The notes under the pieces are model-generated. The model was not told the origin of the DNA. It saw nothing but the letters and a program-made list of their open reading frames with translations, and made no database searches. Below are positions 2,765 to 19,175 of a stretch of 64,000 nucleotides of DNA, piece by piece. The position numbers and the translations under genes are program-made. This DNA is from Sandaracinaceae bacterium. GTDB taxonomy: Bacteria > Myxococcota_A > Polyangia > Polyangiales > JAFGIB01. The stretch is taken from assembly GCA_017881055.1 (NCBI GenBank), contig JADGRF010000034.1:23049-87048 (forward strand). The letters are read 5' to 3'. Numbering within the stretch: the first letter of the stretch is position 1; every line of letters starts with the position of its first letter.

Positions 2765-3088
2765 ATGACCCGCACACTTTCAACCTTTGTTCTCGCTGGC
2801 GCCCTCATTCTCGGAGGAACCGCAAGCGTCTTTGCCAAAGACAAGCTGCTCTCGGAGCAGGAGTTCGAAGCGCGTGCCCACCGAGCCGAGTGCTTGGCCG
2901 AGCGCGTACACCGCATTGAGACGTACCAACAGAAGCTGAACAAGCTGCGTTTTGGTCACGCCTGGCATCCGCGCGGTCCGAGCGTGAACGTGCCGGAGCT
3001 CAATCCGAACCTCGCCGGTAGCGCCATGGCGCTCCTGCTCGGCGGTGCTCTGGTCATCACGGGTCGTCGTCGTCGCACCGTGGTCTGA
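2765..3088 (+). CDS. Small secreted protein with PEP-CTERM-like (VPEL-type) C-terminal sorting signal
   Basis: The protein has 107 residues. The ATG at 2765 was chosen because it follows a GGAGAAG ribosome site and opens a clear Sec signal peptide ending near ASVFA-K. A short charged, helical middle follows. The C-terminus has VPELNPN, a Gly/Ala/Leu-rich transmembrane stretch and a terminal GRRRR cluster. That order (VPE motif, helix, Arg cluster) is the architecture of PEP-CTERM-family signals cut by exosortases. The VPEL variant is not the classical VPEP. The gene stands alone, with a sigma-54-type promoter before it and a hairpin terminator after it, beside exopolysaccharide genes, which is the usual setting of exosortase substrates. 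The mature function is unknown and no exosortase is visible in this window. Confidence 0.8.
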   Translation: MTRTLSTFVLAGALILGGTASVFAKDKLLSEQEFEARAHRAECLAERVHRIETYQQKLNKLRFGHAWHPRGPSVNVPELNPNLAGSAMALLLGGALVITGRRRRTVV

Positions 3089-3145: not shown

Positions 3146-3236
3146 AGCGTTTTGACGCTCGCTGCAGGTGCGTGTCCGTCCCGCAAGCCCCGAGATTGAC
3201 GCGCACGGGCCCGCGAATGCGCTAGATTGGTGGGCC

Positions 3237-4319
3237 ATGGATATCTTCGTCACGGGCGGCGCCGGCTTCATCGGCTCCAACTTCCTGAACTTGCTCGTGC
3301 CTCGGCACCCAGAGCATCGCTTCATCAACGTCGACACGCTCACCTACGCGGCCAACCTAAAGAACTTGGTCTCGATTGCGGATCGGCCGAACTATCTGCT
3401 CGAGCGCGTAGACATCGCCGACCGTTCGGCCGTACGCGAGGTGTTTGCACGCTACAGCCCCCAGATCGTCGTGCATTTCGCGGCCGAGAGTCACGTGGAC
3501 CGCAGCATCCACGCGCCGGACTCGTTCATCGAGACGAACATCACCGGAACCTTCAACCTACTGGAAGCGTTCCGCGCGCTGCCTGCCGGCACGGGCAAGC
3601 TGTTCCACCATGTCAGCACCGACGAGGTGTACGGCTCACTGGGCGAGAAGGGGCTCTTCACCGAGCAGACGGCGTACGACCCGTCGAGCCCGTACTCGGC
3701 GTCCAAGGCTTCCAGTGACCACCTCGTGCGCGCATACCACCGCACGTATGGCTTGCCAGCCAAGATCACCAACTGCTCGAACAACTACGGGCCGTATCAG
3801 TTCCCGGAGAAGCTCATCCCGCTGATCATCCTGAACGCCGCCGAACAGAAGCCGTTGCCGGTCTACGGCCAGGGCAGCAACGTACGCGACTGGCTGTACG
3901 TGGAAGATCACTGCGAAGCGATCTGGGCGGTGATGGAGAAGGGGCGACTCGGCCATACCTACAACGTCGGCGGCCGCAACGAGAAGAAGAACTTGGACGT
4001 GGTGAAGACCATCTGCAGCTTGGTCGCGCGTGAGCAAGGCGTCGCGGAGCAGACACTGCTGGACTTGATTCGCTTCGTGCCGGATCGGCCCGGTCACGAC
4101 CAGCGCTACGCCATCGACGCGAGCAAGGTGATCGCGGAGTGCGGCTGGAAGCCGAAGCGCGACTTCGAGAGCGGTATTCGCGACACGGTGCGCTGGTATC
4201 TGCAGAACGCCTCGTGGGTGAACGACGTGCGCTCGGGCGAATACCGTCAGTGGATCGAGACGAACTACGCGGCGCGGCAGACACAGAGCACACGCGAGAC
4301 CACGGGAGGTACGCCGTGA
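3237..4319 (+). CDS. rfbB: dTDP-glucose 4,6-dehydratase
   Basis: This 360-residue extended SDR enzyme converts dTDP-glucose to dTDP-4-keto-6-deoxyglucose, the second step of dTDP-L-rhamnose synthesis. Visible hallmarks are the N-terminal nucleotide-binding GGAGFIGS, the STDEVYG motif, and the catalytic YSASK (YxxxK). The length is normal for RmlB. The ATG at 3237 was chosen because [13 protein letters not shown] is the conserved start; the longer ORF adds non-homologous sequence. A -10-like TAGATT lies only 8 bases upstream, hinting at a very short leader. Its stop overlaps the GTG of rfbA, so the two are translationally coupled at the head of rfbBACD. Confidence 0.97.
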
Positions 4320-5191
4320 TCGAGAAGGGCATCATTCTCGCCGGTGGCACCGGCACGCGACTTCATCCGCTGACGCAGGCCGTGAGCAAGCAGCTCATGG
4401 CCGTGTACGACAAGCCGATGATCTACTACCCGCTCACGACGCTCATGCTCGCGGGCGTGCGGGACGTGCTGGTGATCACGACGCCGCAGGATCGCGCCAC
4501 GTTTGCGAGCTTGCTGGGCGACGGCGCAAAGTGGGGCATGAAGATCAACTACGCAGTGCAACCGAGCCCGGATGGGCTCGCGCAGGCGTTCCTGATCGGG
4601 GAGCAATTCATCGCGGGGGCGGGCTGCGCGCTCGTGCTGGGCGACAACATCTTCTATGGAGCGGGTCTCGCGGAGGCGCTGCGCGCCGCGGCGGGGCGCA
4701 CGAGCGGTGCCACGGTGTTCGGATACTGGGTCAAGAATCCAACGGCCTTCGGCGTCGTGGAATTCGACGCGAACGATCGCGCCATCAGCATCGAGGAGAA
4801 GCCTGCACAGCCTCGCTCGAACTATGCGGTGACTGGCGTGTACTTCTACGACTCGGAGGTGGTCGCGTTGGCGAAGAGCCTCAAGCCCTCGACGCGCGGC
4901 GAGCTGGAGATCACGGATCTCAACCGGCTGTATCTCGAGCGCGGTACGCTGCGCGTGGAGAAGCTCGGTCGGGGAACGGCGTGGCTGGATACCGGTACAC
5001 CCGATGCGCTGCTGCAAGCGGCGAACTTCGTGCAGACGCTGCAAGCTCGCCAGGGGCTGCAAATCGCGTGTCCGGAGGAAATTGCGTTCCGACTTGGCTG
5101 GATCGATGCGCTGCAATTGCGCAGCCTCGCGGGGCCGCTGGCCAAGACTGCGTACGGGCAGTACTTGCTCGACGTGGCACAGGGTGCCTGA
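4316..5191 (+). CDS. rfbA: Glucose-1-phosphate thymidylyltransferase
   Basis: The enzyme makes dTDP-glucose from dTTP and glucose-1-phosphate, the committing step of dTDP-rhamnose synthesis. The N-terminus carries the nucleotidyltransferase signature [23 protein letters not shown] and [15 protein letters not shown] segments follow, as in RmlA. At 291 residues it matches the family. The GTG at 4316 was chosen over the ORF start because it follows GGGAGGT and begins the conserved EKGIILAGG. The GTGA overlap with rfbB supports an operon. Confidence 0.97.
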
Positions 5192-5209
5192 CATGCTCGG
5201 TGAGACACG

Positions 5210-5761
5210 ATGCGCGTACTGACCACGAGTCTGCCTGATGTGCTGTTGATCGAGCCTGCGGTCTTCGGTGACACGCGCGGTTTCTTCTTCGAGTCGTGGC
5301 ACGCGGAGCGCTACGCGAAGGCCGGTGTGCCGCACCAGTTCGTGCAGGACAACATCTCGCGTTCGCAACGCGGCATCCTGCGCGGCCTGCATCTGCAGAA
5401 TCCGTTCGCGCAGGGCAAGCTCGTGTACGTGCTCGAAGGGGAAGTGTTCGACGTCGCGGTCGACGCGCGTGTGGGCTCGCCGAGCTTCGGCCGCTGGACG
5501 GGGCACACGCTCTCGGCCGAGAACAAGCACCAGCTGTACATCCCGCCGGGCTTCGCTCACGGCTTCTGCGTGACGTCCGACGCAGCCCTGTTCGCGTACA
5601 AGTGCACGGACCTGTACCACCCCGAAACCGAGATCAGCCTCGCGTGGAACGATCCCGCGCTGGCCATCCCCTGGCCGATCGCAGAACCGGCCCTATCTAC
5701 CAAGGATCAGAAGGCGCCACGCCTCTCCGAGGTCGCTCAAGACCGCCTGCCGCGCTACTGA
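5210..5761 (+). CDS. rfbC: dTDP-4-dehydrorhamnose 3,5-epimerase
   Basis: This 183-residue cupin-fold RmlC epimerises C3 and C5 of the dTDP-4-keto sugar. The conserved segments are GFFFESW, the substrate-binding GILRGLHLQ, and PPGFAHGF followed by YKCTDLYHPE, which includes the active-site Tyr region. It follows rfbA by 18 bases in the same direction and has the family's usual length. Confidence 0.96.
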   Translation: MRVLTTSLPDVLLIEPAVFGDTRGFFFESWHAERYAKAGVPHQFVQDNISRSQRGILRGLHLQNPFAQGKLVYVLEGEVFDVAVDARVGSPSFGRWTGHTLSAENKHQLYIPPGFAHGFCVTSDAALFAYKCTDLYHPETEISLAWNDPALAIPWPIAEPALSTKDQKAPRLSEVAQDRLPRY

Positions 5762-5807
5762 GCCAGAACCCTCACGCTCCAGTCACGCTCCACAGCCCCA
5801 CGAGCCG

Positions 5808-6704
5808 ATGTCGACCGAACCGAAGCGCGTTGCACCTCTTTTCTTGATCAGCCCCGACGGCATGCTCGGGCGCGCATTCTCCGCGCTGTTCGAAGGAAAG
5901 GCTGGGGCTTCGCGAACGCGAATCCCAGGACAGCGATTGCCGTTCGACGCCCTGTCGTACCCGAGCCTGGATCTGCGCGACGCCAGCAGTATCGAGCGCG
6001 CCGTGCAGCCGGGCTGCTCGCTCGTGATCAACTGCGCCGCGTACACCGACGTGGATGGCGCGGAGCAGCACGAGGCGGACGCCAACGCAGTGAATGCCGA
6101 AGGCGTAGGCCTGCTCGCGGCGCGCTGCCGCGCGGTCGGCGCGTGCCTTTTGCACTTCAGCACCGACTACGTGTTCGACGGACGCGCCAGCACGCCGTAC
6201 CCGGTGGACGCTCCGCGCGCACCGCAAAATGCCTATGGACGCAGCAAGGCCAGGGGCGAGGAGCTGCTCGAAGCGTCGGGCGCCGAGTACCTGATCGTGC
6301 GCACGAGCTGGCTGTACGCCCCGTGGGGAAAGAACTTCGTGGACACGATCGCGCGTGCTGCGCGCGAGCGGCCCGCACTGCGCGTCGTGAACGACCAGCG
6401 CGGCCGACCAACGAGCGCCGAATACTTGGCCGAGCGTTCCTTCGCGCTCGCGACACAGGGCGCACGCGGCGCGTATCACGTGACGGACGGCGGCGAGTGC
6501 ACTTGGTACGACTTCGCGAGCGAGATCGTCCGGCTCGAGGGCGCGAGCGCACGCGTCGAGCCCTGCACCAGCGCCGAGTTCGTACGGCCAGCACAGCGAC
6601 CCGCGTACAGCGTGCTCGACCTCGCGCGCACCGAGTCGCTGCTCGGACCGTCGCGACCGTGGCAGGAGAATCTCGCGGACGTGCTGCGGGCCCGCAGGTC
6701 CTGA
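5808..6704 (+). CDS. rfbD: dTDP-4-dehydrorhamnose reductase
   Basis: The 298-residue SDR enzyme reduces the 4-keto sugar to dTDP-L-rhamnose. It shows a nucleotide-binding DGMLGRAF, the DYVFDG motif and the catalytic YGRSK (YxxxK), with AYTDVD as in RmlD. The N-terminal glycine motif is slightly degenerate (ISPDGMLG rather than GxxGQLG). Residues about 34-40 (SRTRIP) are encoded by a palindromic repeat that also occurs inside an ABC-transporter gene at 54.8 kb, so this loop may be a lineage-specific insertion. The gene ends one base before the next ORF. Confidence 0.94.
   Translation: MSTEPKRVAPLFLISPDGMLGRAFSALFEGKAGASRTRIPGQRLPFDALSYPSLDLRDASSIERAVQPGCSLVINCAAYTDVDGAEQHEADANAVNAEGVGLLAARCRAVGACLLHFSTDYVFDGRASTPYPVDAPRAPQNAYGRSKARGEELLEASGAEYLIVRTSWLYAPWGKNFVDTIARAARERPALRVVNDQRGRPTSAEYLAERSFALATQGARGAYHVTDGGECTWYDFASEIVRLEGASARVEPCTSAEFVRPAQRPAYSVLDLARTESLLGPSRPWQENLADVLRARRS
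5904..5926. repeat. Dispersed palindrome, copy A (inside rfbD)
   Basis: The core TTCGCG-AA-CGCGAA is a perfect palindrome with partly complementary G/C flanks, followed by CAGGA. The same core with the central AA replaced by TT is found at 54811-54828; related hairpins lie at 19416-19436 and 57332-57351. Confidence 0.6.
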
Positions 6705-6705
6705 A

Positions 6706-9700
6706 ATGGCGAACGGCGGCGTCAAGGAGTCCGTAGAGGACACGGTAAAGGAAACCGTAGCCGCAGGCGGCTTGGACAGAGGGGCCAGCGAGGATTCCGC
6801 GCGCCAGGGATCGGTCGGCCGTGAAAGACTCGCTCTGCGCGTCGCGATCGCCGCCACGTTCACTGCGAATCCGATCGAAGCCCCCCTGCGCTTCTGGCTC
6901 GATCAGCTCGGCTTCGCGGGCGATGTCGAGCATGCGCCGTACAGCCAAGTCTTCCAAGCGCTGCTCGACCCGATGAGCGCGCTCGGGCAGAATGACGGCG
7001 GCGTGAACCTGGTGCTAGTGCGCTTCGAGGACTTCCTGCGCTTCGCGAACGCCGTCGACGCCGGCCGTGATCACGAAGCGCTGCTCTCGGCCCGGGTCGA
7101 AGAGCTGGCGTCGGCGCTGCGCAGCTACGCGAGCCGCCAAGCCACCCCGACGCTACTCTGGATCGGACCCGCCTCGACCGCGGCGCAGGCGAATCGCGAG
7201 CAGTGCGCGCTGTTCGCACGGCTCACCGAGACCTTGCTCGCGCGTGTGCAAGATCTGCCGAGTGTGCAGCTGCTCGAAGAACGAGCGCTGTCGCCGTACC
7301 CCGTACCGGTGATCTACGACGCGCGCCGCGATGAGATCGGCCACATTCCGTATGCGCCTGCATTCTTCAGCGCGCTCGGCACTGCGATCGCACGGCGCAT
7401 CTACGCGCTGAAGACACCGGCCATCAAAGTGATCGCGCTGGACTGCGACAACACGCTCTGGCGCGGCGTCGTGGGCGAAGACGGCCTGCGCGGCATCACG
7501 GTGCCGGAGGGCATGCTCGCGCTGCAACGCGCCGTGATCGAGCAGCAGACGCGCGGCGTGGTGCTTTGTCTGCTCAGCAAGAATGCGGAAGAAGACGTGC
7601 TCGAGGTGCTCGACCACCACGCAAGTATGCTGCTGACGCGAAAGCACCTCGTGGGCTATCGCATCGACTGGCAGCCGAAGGCACGGAACATCGCCGAGCT
7701 CGCGCGCGAGCTGAACCTCGGGCTCGATAGCTTCCTGTTCATCGACGACAACCCGGTCGAATGCGCGCACATGCTCGCGGCGCATCCGCAAGTGCTCACG
7801 TTCATGCTGCCCAAGGACGACACGCAGATTCCGTCGTTCTTGGAGCATTTGTGGCCGCTCGATCGGTTGCAGGTGACCGAGGAAGATCGGATGCGCACGC
7901 GCATGTACCAGGAGAACGCGCAGCGCAGCTCGCTCGAGCGCCAAGCAGGCAACATCGCCGCGTTTCTCGAAGGGCTCGAGCTCGAGGTGGACATCGCGCC
8001 ACCCGTGCCCGGCGAGATTCCGCGCATCGCACAGCTCACGGGCCGCACCAACCAGTTCAACTTCACGACCATCCGTCGCAACGAGGCCGACATGGCGCAG
8101 CTCACCAGCACAGGGCTCGAGTGCATGCGCGTGACGGTCAGCGACCGCTTCGGCGCGTACGGTCTGGTCGGCGTGATGATCTTCGGTGCACAGGGCGAGG
8201 TCCTGCGTATCGATACGCTGCTCCTCAGCTGTCGCGTGCTCGGTCGCGGCGTCGAGCACGCGATGCTGCGCGAGCTCGGCAAGCTCGCGCTCGCGCGTGG
8301 TGCTCGCAGCATCGAAGCACCGTTCTCGCCGACCAAGAAGAATCAACCGGCGCAGAACTTCCTGGAGAGCTTGGGCGTACCCGCGGAACCGATTGCGGGT
8401 GGCACCCGCTACACGATCGATGCGGAGCTCGCGGCCGGACTCGAGTATCGCCCCGGCGCGGACGCGGCGGCGCAGCTCGAGCTGGCGCGCACGGGCGGGA
8501 AGACTGGCCCTGCTGCCGCCGTCGGCAACGAAACGGCGCGCTACAGTGCCAGCGCCGTCTTGCAGCGCGTGACAAGTGAATGGCGTTCCGTCGATGCCGT
8601 GCACGCGGCCATCGAAGCCAGCGCGATCACGACGCGGCCTGAGCTCGACGTTGCGTGGACTGCGCCGCGCAACGTGCTCGAGCGAGAGCTGTGCGAGCTT
8701 TGGCAGCGCCTGTTGCACATCGATCGAGTCGGGGTAAACGACGATTTCACCGCGCTCTCGGGCACGTCGCTGGCAGCCGCGCAACTGTTCGCGGAGCTGG
8801 ACGAGCGCTACAGCGTGAAGCTACCGATGACGACTATTCTCGATGCGCCCACAGTGGCGGCGCTCGCGCTGCGCATCGCGGACAGCGAGCGCTCGGAAGC
8901 CCACAGCTCGCTCCGTACGTTGCGCAAGGGCAAGCCCGGGGGCCCCAAGCTCTTTCTGGTGCACGACGGCGATGGCGAGACGCTACTCTATTTGAACCTT
9001 GCGCGGCGCCTACCAGAGGAAGTGACGGTCTACGGGATCGAGCCGCTCGGCGATGCGCGCGTGCCCATGCGCCACACCCGCATCCCGGACATGGCCAAGC
9101 ACTATCTCGATCTCGTCACGCGCGAAGCGCCGGACGAGCCGTATTGGCTCGGCGGGATGTGCGCGGGCGGAACGATCGCGTTCGAGATGGCGTTGCAGCT
9201 CGAGGCACGCGGACGGCGTGTGCCGCTGGTCGCGCTGCTCGACTCGGCCGACCCGGAAGCCAAGCCGAAGCGCGGCATCCAGAGCAAGCGGCGCCTCACG
9301 CGCTTCGTGAACGCGCTGCGTGGGCGCTCGCAGCCGCCTCCGCCACCGGATGCGCCGAGCGCCGAGCTGATCGCCGCCAACGCCAACAAGGCGAAGGTTG
9401 CAGCTAACAGTTCCGGCGCGCATGGCGAGGAGAGCCGCCTGCAGCGCGCCGCCGCCAAGCTCAAGAACGTGATCGTGTACGAGACGCAGACACGCCTGGC
9501 GGCGCGTGACCAGCGCACGCGCTTCGCGGACTTGCGTCAGGTGCTCGAACGTGGAAAAGTCGTCCCCCCACGCCTGCAGCACCTGTCGGTGCGCACGGTC
9601 TACGATCTCGCGCAGGAAGAGTACGTGCCGAGCCGCGCGCCGAACGCCCACGTGGCGTTGTTTCGCGCGACCGGCGGTGAAGGCGGCGACGAGGCGTTCG

Positions 9701-9858
9701 TGCACCTGTACGAGGATCCGCTGCTCGGCTGGCAGCCGCGCCTGCGCCGGCCGCTCGAGGTGCTCGACATGCCGGGTGGTCACGCCAGCATGTTGCAGGA
9801 GCCGTACGTGGCGACCATGGCCGAGCGCATGGCCGCATGTATAAAGAAGACATCATGA
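6706..9858 (+). CDS. FkbH-type HAD / GNAT-like / acyl carrier / thioesterase fusion
   Basis: The 1050-residue protein has four parts. Residues about 40-230 are an FkbH N-terminal region. Residues 235-390 are a HAD domain with DCDNT (D246, D248). Residues about 390-570 are the GNAT-like region typical of FkbH (TNQFNFTT). A carrier domain at about 655-730 has the phosphopantetheine serine in SGTSLAA. Residues about 745-1050 are an alpha/beta-hydrolase thioesterase whose nucleophile elbow reads GMCAGG, with Cys819 in place of serine. FkbH proteins load a glyceryl unit from 1,3-bisphosphoglycerate onto a carrier protein. Here loading, carrying and off-loading are on one chain, one base after rfbD and overlapping a glycosyltransferase. 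The inferred role is making or transferring a glyceryl or lactyl-type decoration for the polysaccharide; the acceptor is unknown. Confidence 0.9.
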   Translation: MANGGVKESVEDTVKETVAAGGLDRGASEDSARQGSVGRERLALRVAIAATFTANPIEAPLRFWLDQLGFAGDVEHAPYSQVFQALLDPMSALGQNDGGVNLVLVRFEDFLRFANAVDAGRDHEALLSARVEELASALRSYASRQATPTLLWIGPASTAAQANREQCALFARLTETLLARVQDLPSVQLLEERALSPYPVPVIYDARRDEIGHIPYAPAFFSALGTAIARRIYALKTPAIKVIALDCDNTLWRGVVGEDGLRGITVPEGMLALQRAVIEQQTRGVVLCLLSKNAEEDVLEVLDHHASMLLTRKHLVGYRIDWQPKARNIAELARELNLGLDSFLFIDDNPVECAHMLAAHPQVLTFMLPKDDTQIPSFLEHLWPLDRLQVTEEDRMRTRMYQENAQRSSLERQAGNIAAFLEGLELEVDIAPPVPGEIPRIAQLTGRTNQFNFTTIRRNEADMAQLTSTGLECMRVTVSDRFGAYGLVGVMIFGAQGEVLRIDTLLLSCRVLGRGVEHAMLRELGKLALARGARSIEAPFSPTKKNQPAQNFLESLGVPAEPIAGGTRYTIDAELAAGLEYRPGADAAAQLELARTGGKTGPAAAVGNETARYSASAVLQRVTSEWRSVDAVHAAIEASAITTRPELDVAWTAPRNVLERELCELWQRLLHIDRVGVNDDFTALSGTSLAAAQLFAELDERYSVKLPMTTILDAPTVAALALRIADSERSEAHSSLRTLRKGKPGGPKLFLVHDGDGETLLYLNLARRLPEEVTVYGIEPLGDARVPMRHTRIPDMAKHYLDLVTREAPDEPYWLGGMCAGGTIAFEMALQLEARGRRVPLVALLDSADPEAKPKRGIQSKRRLTRFVNALRGRSQPPPPPDAPSAELIAANANKAKVAANSSGAHGEESRLQRAAAKLKNVIVYETQTRLAARDQRTRFADLRQVLERGKVVPPRLQHLSVRTVYDLAQEEYVPSRAPNAHVALFRATGGEGGDEAFVHLYEDPLLGWQPRLRRPLEVLDMPGGHASMLQEPYVATMAERMAACIKKTS

Positions 9859-15389: not shown

Positions 15390-16127
15390 ATGCGCGCGGT
15401 CTTGATGCTCCACAGCATCGATGCCTCGGGCTCGGTGCTCTCGATGACGCAGAGCGAGTTGCGCTCGCTCGTGCAGGCCGTGCGTCGCTCGGGGCACGAG
15501 CTGCTGCCGCTCACCCAGCTACTCGACGACGACTCGCAGAAGCGCGCGGTCGCGCTGACGTTCGACGACGGAATGCGCACGCTCGTCACCGACGCTGCGC
15601 CCGTACTGCGCGAGCTCGGCGTGCCCGCAACGCTGTTTCTGACGACCGGCTACGTGGGCAAAGACAACGGCTGGCCGAGCCAACCGCCGCTTGCCCCGCG
15701 CTTGCCGATCATGGGCTGGGATGAGCTCGAGACGCTGAAGCAGAGCGGCTGGGACATCCAAGCGCACACGGTCACGCACCCCGACCTGCGCACGCAGAGC
15801 GACGATGCGGCGCTGCACGAGCTGACCGAGCCCGTCGAGACGATCGCTCGACGCCTCGGGCACAAGCCCAGCTTGCTCGCGTATCCGTACGGCTACTTCG
15901 ATCGACGGATCGAAGCGCTCACGTCACGGGTCTACGGGCGCGCGCTCTCGACGCGCATGGCCCTGCTCGACGGCGACACGCGCGGCCCGCTCGCCGTGCC
16001 GCGGCTCGACACGTATTACTTCCGAAGCGAGGCCGTGCACCGGCACTTCGGCAGCAAGCGCTTTCGCGCGTACCTCGAAGCACGCGCGCTGTTGCGCCGC
16101 GCGCGCAAGCACCCCGGCGAATGCTAA
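15390..16127 (+). CDS. Polysaccharide deacetylase (NodB-like, CE4)
   Basis: This 245-residue NodB-homology protein has the catalytic TFDDG, the metal-binding HTVTHPDL (HxxxH) and the downstream AYPYGYFD motif. These enzymes remove N-acetyl groups from amino sugars in extracellular or lipid-linked polysaccharides. No signal peptide is visible, so it may act on the cytoplasmic side or depend on another route. It follows the small membrane protein by 16 bases after an AGAGAGAGAAAG purine-rich ribosome site, and is the last gene of this plus-strand group. Confidence 0.92.
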   Translation: MRAVLMLHSIDASGSVLSMTQSELRSLVQAVRRSGHELLPLTQLLDDDSQKRAVALTFDDGMRTLVTDAAPVLRELGVPATLFLTTGYVGKDNGWPSQPPLAPRLPIMGWDELETLKQSGWDIQAHTVTHPDLRTQSDDAALHELTEPVETIARRLGHKPSLLAYPYGYFDRRIEALTSRVYGRALSTRMALLDGDTRGPLAVPRLDTYYFRSEAVHRHFGSKRFRAYLEARALLRRARKHPGEC

Positions 16128-17161: not shown

Positions 17162-17980
17162 TCATGGGCGGTCACGGATGCGCCGGCCGGCCGCGTGGGC
17201 GAACAGCCGAAACACGAACGGAAGGTCGTTCAGCAGGTAGCGCCGCGCGAGCCGACGCGGCTCCTGCGAGAGGCGGTGCGTCCACTCGAGGCCCGTGCGC
17301 CGCATCCACGCCGGTGCGCGCGCGACGCCGCCGGAAACGAAGCTGAACGAGATGCCGACGCCCACCATCCAGGCGGCGGGGAAGTCCGCACGCAGCGCCG
17401 CGATCAGGTGTTCTTGCTTGGGCGAGCCGAGACCGACGAGCACGAGATCAGGACGGGTGCGGGTCAGCTCGGCGCGAATCTCGGCGAGCTCGGCAGCGGT
17501 GGCGGGCGTGTGAACACGGGGGGAAGAGCAGCCCGCGATGCGTAGCCCCGGAGACCGCTCGCACAGCACGCTCGCGGCGCCCTCGGCGGCGCCCAACTCG
17601 CCGCCGAGCAAGTAGAGCGAGCGGCCTTCGCGCGCGGCACGTTCGGCGAAGCGGTAGATCAAAGCCGAGCCCGCTACGCGCTCCGGCAGCGGCGAGCCGA
17701 GCACTTGCGACGCCCACACTAGAGGCATGCCGTCGGCGACGATCACGTCGGCGTCGGCGTAAAGCGTGCGTAGCGCGGGATCGTTGGCGTAGCGATGCAA
17801 GTGGTCGAGGTTGGCGGTGACGAGCCAGCCACCGCGCGCATGACTCAGCTCTCCGAACATGTGATCGAGCAGCGCGTTTTCGTCGACGTGCGCGAGCGGC
17901 ATGCCGAAGAGCGAGAGTGTGGGAAGCGCGTGCGTCATGATCTCGGAGGTGTTGCGCACCGACTCACGGAGCGCGCTCAT
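17162..17980 (-). CDS. WecG/TagA/CpsF-family glycosyltransferase (GT26)
   Basis: The 272-residue protein contains WLVTANLDHLHRYANDP, ADGMPLVWASQVLG and VGLGSPKQE, the hallmarks of the WecG/TagA/CpsF family, which adds N-acetylmannosamine-type sugars to undecaprenyl-linked acceptors. The ATG at 17980 was preferred because a GGTGG ribosome site precedes it; it overlaps the upstream glycosyltransferase gene by 17 bases. The family is common in exosortase/PEP-CTERM-associated exopolysaccharide clusters, which fits the VPEL-tailed protein at 2.8 kb. Confidence 0.92.
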   Translation of the reverse strand: MSALRESVRNTSEIMTHALPTLSLFGMPLAHVDENALLDHMFGELSHARGGWLVTANLDHLHRYANDPALRTLYADADVIVADGMPLVWASQVLGSPLPERVAGSALIYRFAERAAREGRSLYLLGGELGAAEGAASVLCERSPGLRIAGCSSPRVHTPATAAELAEIRAELTRTRPDLVLVGLGSPKQEHLIAALRADFPAAWMVGVGISFSFVSGGVARAPAWMRRTGLEWTHRLSQEPRRLARRYLLNDLPFVFRLFAHAAGRRIRDRP

Positions 17981-19175
17981 CGTTGCCACCGCGGTCGGTG
18001 CGCTCCCAGCGCGCATGGCGACCCCGCGTGAGGAAGCTGAAGTATAGCGGCAGCTTCCACAGCACGTAGCGCGGAATGGCAAGTAACTGACGCGCGCTCA
18101 CGACCTCGCGTCCGTACGCGAGCCAGGCCGACAGCACACCCGACACCATGAACACGACGCACAACGCTGCGAGCTGCGCGGGCAGCCAGGACGCACCGAG
18201 CCACGGCACGATCAGCGCGAAGCCGAGCGTGGCCAGCACGAGCATGAGCAAGAGCGAGAGCGGCGGCACCGCGAGATCCAGCGCCAGCGCGACCAAGCCG
18301 AAACGCGCCTGCGTGAGGCCCTGCAGGAACAAGCTCGGGCCGTGCTCGAGCAGCGTGGCGAGATGACCGTGCTCCCAGCGCCGACGCTGCGTGTGCGCCG
18401 CTTCGGCGCGCTCCGGCAGCTCGCTCGTCACGTAGGCATCGGGACACAAGAGCGGCGCGTGGCCGAGGCGCGCGAGATCGAGACCCATCACCATGTCCTC
18501 GACCAGATGCCCTTCCGTCGGCGGCGCCATGCGAATCACGCGCCACGGAAACGCCATGCCGGTACCCGTGAGCAGGCATGGCAGCCCGAGCGCATGAAGT
18601 CCTCGTGGTCGCGCACGATTCTTCACCACGAACGCCAGCGCCGAGACGACCGACAGCCCCTTCGGATCCTTCGGCGCATCGAGCACGTAGTCCGCTTGCA
18701 CCGGCCGATCAGTGCGCGCCGCCAAGCGTGCGATCCGATCGATCGAACCCGCTGCCACGGTGCAGTCCGCATCCACGATCACGACGACATCCGGCGGATC
18801 TGCCGCGAGATGATCGAGCCCAAACACGAGCGCATAGCCCTTGCCGCGCCGCTCGAAATCGCTGCGCTCGATCGCCGTCGCCCCCGACGCACGCGCAATC
18901 GCCGCCGTGTCGTCGCTGCAGTTGTCCGCGACGACGAGCAACACATCGTTCGCCTTCAGCTGCGCCCGTAACCCCGAAAGCGTGCGAGCAATGATCCCCC
19001 GCTCATCATGCGCCGGCACAAGGATCGCAACCCGCGGCGCCCCCCCGCCATCATCCCCGCCCCGCGTCCCCCCCCGCGCCAGCGCCCCAATCAAACACTC
19101 CGCAAAGAACACAAAACAAGGCACGAGCAACCCGCCCACCCAAACCAACAACCCAAGCTCAAGAACAAAACCCAT
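17964..19175 (-). CDS. Membrane GT2 glycosyltransferase (processive-type)
   Basis: The 403-residue protein starts at ATG 19175 with a hydrophobic helix (MGFVLELGLLVWVGG); the ORF-track extension runs into repeat DNA and is not coding. The GT2 domain has ILVPAHDERG, VIVDADC (DxD) and a QRRRWEHG block matching the (Q/R)xxRW motif of processive beta-glycosyltransferases. Three to four helices follow residue about 300. It overlaps the WecG/TagA gene, forming a two-gene unit. It could polymerise or extend the exopolysaccharide; the sugar is unknown. Confidence 0.9.
   Translation of the reverse strand: MGFVLELGLLVWVGGLLVPCFVFFAECLIGALARGGTRGGDDGGGAPRVAILVPAHDERGIIARTLSGLRAQLKANDVLLVVADNCSDDTAAIARASGATAIERSDFERRGKGYALVFGLDHLAADPPDVVVIVDADCTVAAGSIDRIARLAARTDRPVQADYVLDAPKDPKGLSVVSALAFVVKNRARPRGLHALGLPCLLTGTGMAFPWRVIRMAPPTEGHLVEDMVMGLDLARLGHAPLLCPDAYVTSELPERAEAAHTQRRRWEHGHLATLLEHGPSLFLQGLTQARFGLVALALDLAVPPLSLLLMLVLATLGFALIVPWLGASWLPAQLAALCVVFMVSGVLSAWLAYGREVVSARQLLAIPRYVLWKLPLYFSFLTRGRHARWERTDRGGNDERAP

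Follow-up and report, generated by a model that had tools for sequence, protein, structure and literature searches.

A small, putatively secreted protein with a VPEL-type C-terminal tail as a probable exosortase E substrate in a Myxococcota genome

Which sorting system does a small, putatively secreted protein belong to when its C-terminal tail has the layout of an exosortase signal and a non-classical motif? The question is raised by P0001, a protein of 107 amino acids encoded at positions 2765-3088 (+) of the window, a 64,000-nucleotide stretch (contig C51:23049-87048) of a Sandaracinaceae assembly of 5.88 Mb in 341 contigs, rated 94% complete. The open reading frame is genuine. A GGAG-type ribosome-binding sequence precedes the ATG, the translation is MTRTLSTFVLAGALILGGTASVFAKDK...SVNVPELNPNLAGSAMALLLGGALVITGRRRRTVV*, and syntenic orthologs were found in two congeners, G056 (54% identity over 103 amino acids) and G055 (47%); the G055 copy has one in-frame TAA, either a disruption or an assembly error. 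Residues ~1-24 (MTRTLSTFVLAGALILGGTASVFA; 2765-2836, +) are a predicted N-terminal signal peptide, in which, by hydropathy and inspection by eye, residues 8-22 are strongly hydrophobic and a cleavage-like site lies between A and K of V-F-A-K. The body between the predicted signal peptide and the tail is short, charged and helical-looking, and was assigned to no named family by Pfam or NCBIfam. Named genomes searched with the full protein gave no match, and the body therefore appears genus-restricted.

The tail reads VPELNPN-LAGSAMALLLGGALVIT-GRRRR. It consists of the signature motif VPELNPN (residues 76-82; 2990-3010, +), a Gly/Ala/Leu-rich transmembrane segment placed by the hydropathy maximum and the tail alignment (residues ~84-99; 3014-3061, +; Kyte-Doolittle about 2.07) and the basic cluster RRRR (residues 101-104; 3065-3076, +). 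When the six frames of the window were searched with a leave-own-genome-out profile, built from tails of other genomes with none from the host genome, the P0001 tail was found at E = 9.3e-16; the next-best frame of the window reached 0.013 and the shuffled frames 0.11 at best, so that the tail is not a chance match. Translation, hydropathy and profile thus bear out the preliminary description, which had seen an exosortase-substrate layout with a non-classical motif in the VPELNPN, the Gly/Leu-rich helix and the terminal Arg cluster.

Models of two other C-terminal signals also respond to this tail. TIGR01167, the LPXTG model, gives P0001 21.5 bits, above its permissive cut-off of 15.9, as would be expected of a protein anchored by sortase; the match is confined to the helix and basic cluster (profile positions 13-33), the LPXTG motif is absent from P0001, and no match to sortase PF04203 was obtained in the host genome, while Gram-positive controls were positive. 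With both enzyme and motif absent this identity was ruled out, and its probability is practically nil. Because the cut-off is passed on the helix and basic residues alone, automatic pipelines are likely to misname P0001 as an LPXTG protein. The host genome also encodes about seven MYXO-CTERM proteins, and the P0001 helix and basic cluster score weakly on TIGR03901 (15.5-18 bits), which would fit a MYXO-CTERM identity with myxosortase MrtX as the processing enzyme; the score is under the cut-off of 20, and the invariant MYXO-CTERM cysteine is needed for MrtX cleavage (PMC11980579). There is no Cys in residues 70-107 of P0001, and the lack of this defining residue rules out the MYXO-CTERM identity, to which we give only a very slight chance.

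P0001 is not the only bearer of the tail, whose uniqueness would have counted against a sorting signal in the preliminary description. Three further host-genome proteins carry it, on contigs C148 (VPELDPSAASSAGTLLIGGALTLLGRKR), C314 (VPELDANTASSALALLGCALLIHSGRRR) and C168, the last being a protein of 65 amino acids that is scarcely more than a signal peptide and IPELDPKAGGAALVLLAGVIAVLTARRR. The tail-bearing proteins differ in body, and some relatives reach 220-270 amino acids or longer. Alignment of 17 tails, whose bodies are for the most part unrelated, shows no variation in P-E-L or in a Leu-Leu pair. Since APEL or TPEL occurs in the tails of some relatives, the firm motif core is PEL. Matches to the tail profile were counted at E 1e-6 or better, a threshold that was set after the list was seen, because many chance transmembrane matches appear at E 0.001-0.1.

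The preliminary description had tied its proposal to the presence of an exosortase (PF09721) in the same genome, and one clear exosortase E was found there. Two host-genome proteins score above the curated PF09721 cut-off, one of 560 amino acids on C96 and one of 182 amino acids on C47; a third protein, a fragment of 79 amino acids on C9, matches TIGR04178 weakly. The C96 protein is an exosortase E/CAAX-protease fusion (XrtE), with 190.6 bits on TIGR04162 (cut-off 150) and, for its CAAX-protease half, 94.3 bits on TIGR03008 (cut-off 81). C223, R244, R270 and H291, together with the EExxR, H and N of the protease half, are invariant in 14 XrtE sequences of the order, the host sequence included. 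The C47 protein is XrtM/H/X-like, scores below the cut-offs of those models and has conserved residues that look intact. In two genomes of the genus, a small XrtM/H/X-like exosortase of 182-201 amino acids is followed by a hypothetical membrane protein (L213:14535-15861, G000:C47; L118, G055:C740).

Pairing of tail and XrtE was assessed in 184 genomes of the host's order, using a tail profile seeded from P0001 independently of XrtE; XrtE was found in 15 genomes and the tail, at E 1e-6 or better, in 21. The tail is present in 14/15 genomes with XrtE versus 7/169 without (14 both, 1 XrtE only, 7 tail only, 162 neither; Fisher p = 4.8e-15, with no phylogeny correction beyond genus and a post hoc threshold). 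Counted by genus, which is as far as phylogeny is handled and again under the post hoc threshold, the figures are 9 both, 1 XrtE only, 0 tail only and 74 neither (p = 2.7e-11).

Gene order and profile comparison connect the same two partners. Of 80 public XrtE loci, 66 have 2 kb of upstream DNA, and a same-strand open reading frame with a VPE[ILVFM] tail lies within this distance upstream of XrtE in 19, compared with 0-2 per 2-kb bin elsewhere. VPELDP genes adjoin XrtE in G058 and G039, as do other tail genes in G060, G092 and G161. On an Acidobacteriota contig (L203 8313-9353), five small VPEID-tailed open reading frames stand in series just upstream of xrtE. A profile made from 24 XrtE-adjacent tails, mostly of other phyla and matched by TIGR04161 (VPEID-CTERM) in 20 cases, selects exactly the same four host-genome proteins, with P0001 at 1.3e-8; aligned with the PEL tail profile in hhalign, it gives a profile-profile probability of 98.4%. 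A tree of XrtE places the Myxococcota enzymes together on one side (95/92), and most of them are accompanied by PEL tails; VPEI is seen in two basal Myxococcota rows, and Hydrogenophaga arrived at VPEL separately. The type of tail motif follows the XrtE tree, and the VPEL-[DN]-P, transmembrane and Arg tail is best read as a lineage form of the VPEID-CTERM sorting signal. P0001 is accordingly placed, with high though incomplete confidence, as a VPEL-type substrate of the host XrtE on C96 within the XrtE/VPEID-CTERM system.

Recognition of the tail by the second exosortase, the C47 enzyme, would be compatible with its presence in the same genome as P0001 and with its apparently intact residues, and a C47-type protein also occurs in congener G055, where the tail is present and XrtE was not detected. 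Against it, G057, G058, G039, G161 and other tail genomes have XrtE and no C47-type enzyme, PEL tails adjoin XrtE, and the XrtE-adjacent profile recovers PEL tails; we therefore consider this assignment improbable.

The seven genomes in which the tail was found and XrtE was not are G028, G030, G031, G040, G044, G045 and G055, several of them in genus g21; for G030 and G040 the completeness rating is about 100%. The gene order in G039 is tail-XrtE-TetR-DctP and in G040 tail-TetR-DctP, and G031 and G045, judged by the same gene clusters, likewise lack XrtE between their tail and TetR genes. Since the slot occupied in G039 lacks XrtE in G040, the tail can persist after the enzyme has gone. G041 has a broken exosortase E remnant beside the TetR gene (L050 1456-2241, G041:C28) and no tail past the threshold, and thus represents natural loss of the exosortase E system. 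A replacement enzyme was sought beside the tail in the XrtE-less g21 genomes, and no protease was found there, the neighbours being a TetR regulator and DctP-like proteins. The g21 exceptions read as loss of the enzyme, after which the substrate was retained or disappeared in its turn. G030, which has a PEL tail, also encodes a small exosortase-family protein adjoining a protein that looks by eye like a VIT/VWA protein (L083 1462-3353, G030:C36), a different sorting pair.

Retention of the tail without XrtE in several g21 genomes is also what a permanent, unprocessed C-terminal membrane anchor would allow, and topology by itself would anchor P0001. Such an anchor would have no need of a PEL motif, yet P-E-L is invariant in the 17 tails, mostly on unrelated bodies, and the occurrence of the tail is closely tied to that of XrtE; a plain anchor is thus a very improbable account of P0001.

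If P0001 is an XrtE substrate, its processing would follow the published exosortase model (PMC1569441). The protein would be exported via Sec and held in the inner membrane by its tail, which would place the VPEL motif on the periplasmic side. XrtE, with its Cys-Arg-His exosortase domain and its CAAX-type glutamic intramembrane protease domain, would cleave at or near VPEL and free the body from its helix. The body would then probably be joined by transpeptidation to a different carrier that takes it to the cell surface or into the polysaccharide matrix.

A polysaccharide destination is suggested by the surroundings of P0001, which are a polysaccharide locus. Upstream lies a GT2/GtrA membrane protein. 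Downstream, a dTDP-glucose 4,6-dehydratase of the RfbB type (3168-4319, +; likely true start near 3238) is followed by RfbA-, RfbC- and RfbD-type genes identified by Pfam (4139-5191, 5210-5761 and 5808-6704; together 4139-6704, +), which complete a dTDP-rhamnose operon, then by an acyl carrier protein (ACP)-thioesterase protein and glycosyltransferases. The tail gene stands beside rfbB in all three genomes of the genus (host, G056 and G055). The protein directly after the rhamnose genes (6706-9858, +; 1050 amino acids) has phosphopantetheine-binding and thioesterase domains and, by eye, an FkbH-like N-terminal part, unusual company for a sugar operon. The exopolysaccharide neighbourhood of the preliminary description holds for the adjoining GT2/GtrA and rfb genes; the deacetylase (15390-16127) and WecG/TagA enzyme (17162-18082) that it named exist, but 12-15 kb from P0001. 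As the host XrtE is on C96, neither beside the P0001 gene nor in any polysaccharide locus, the WecG and deacetylase neighbourhood is weak evidence. Gene context therefore only suggests a role for P0001 in polysaccharide export, and a functional link to the adjacent dTDP-rhamnose locus would be of the same kind. A more far-reaching proposal is that the tail marks a distinct PEL-CTERM subclass of the exosortase E signal in Myxococcota of this order, uncoupled from XrtE in some genomes and there used by another enzyme or as a plain anchor, with one substrate fixed in the dTDP-rhamnose locus in the host genus; we hold this to be tentative and rather doubtful.

Assignment to XrtE would give myxobacteria a second C-terminal sorting route beside MYXO-CTERM. 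No description of a PEL-tail/XrtE system was found in the literature searched. The PEL tail profile captures substrates that current models miss or likely mislabel as LPXTG, and four proteins with one enzyme form a small substrate set suited to probing the role of the fused protease half of exosortase E.

Among known systems, classical PEP-CTERM/exosortase A (TIGR02595/TIGR03109) shares the tripartite layout, a signal peptide (predicted in P0001), an exosortase-fold enzyme and nearby polysaccharide genes, whereas P0001 has no Pro-Glu-Pro and the host enzyme is an exosortase E that carries a fused protease. TIGR02595 gave no qualifying match for P0001 and matched 1/17 tails (E = 0.08). The PEP-CTERM-like label of the preliminary description needs correcting in that the closest class is XrtE/VPEID-CTERM rather than generic PEP-CTERM. 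MYXO-CTERM/myxosortase (TIGR03901/MrtX) has in common with P0001 the phylum, the host genome, a similar helix and Arg cluster and the involvement of a CAAX-family protease; it differs in that the P0001 motif is without cysteine and the proposed partner is an exosortase E with a CAAX-type half of its own. For exosortase E/VPEID-CTERM (TIGR04162/TIGR04161), the differences are the host motif, VPEL[DN] versus VPEID, and the host substrates, dispersed rather than adjoining the enzyme. No host tail reaches the TIGR04161 cut-off of 33 bits (best, 25.2 bits); the model alone gives two host-genome matches with E < 0.1, both below the cut-off, and P0001 is not among the matches. P0001 is therefore filed as a variant and not as a TIGR04161 member. 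Shared are an enzyme above cut-off, small and putatively secreted proteins ending in a tripartite tail, the position of tail genes immediately before xrtE in other genomes and the profile-profile match of 98.4%. The preliminary description rightly suspected that this lineage has a sorting class that is less studied; on the best reading that class is exosortase E/VPEID-CTERM, and the P0001 tail is a lineage-specific VPEL form of this already known system, so divergent that the NCBIfam model does not capture it.
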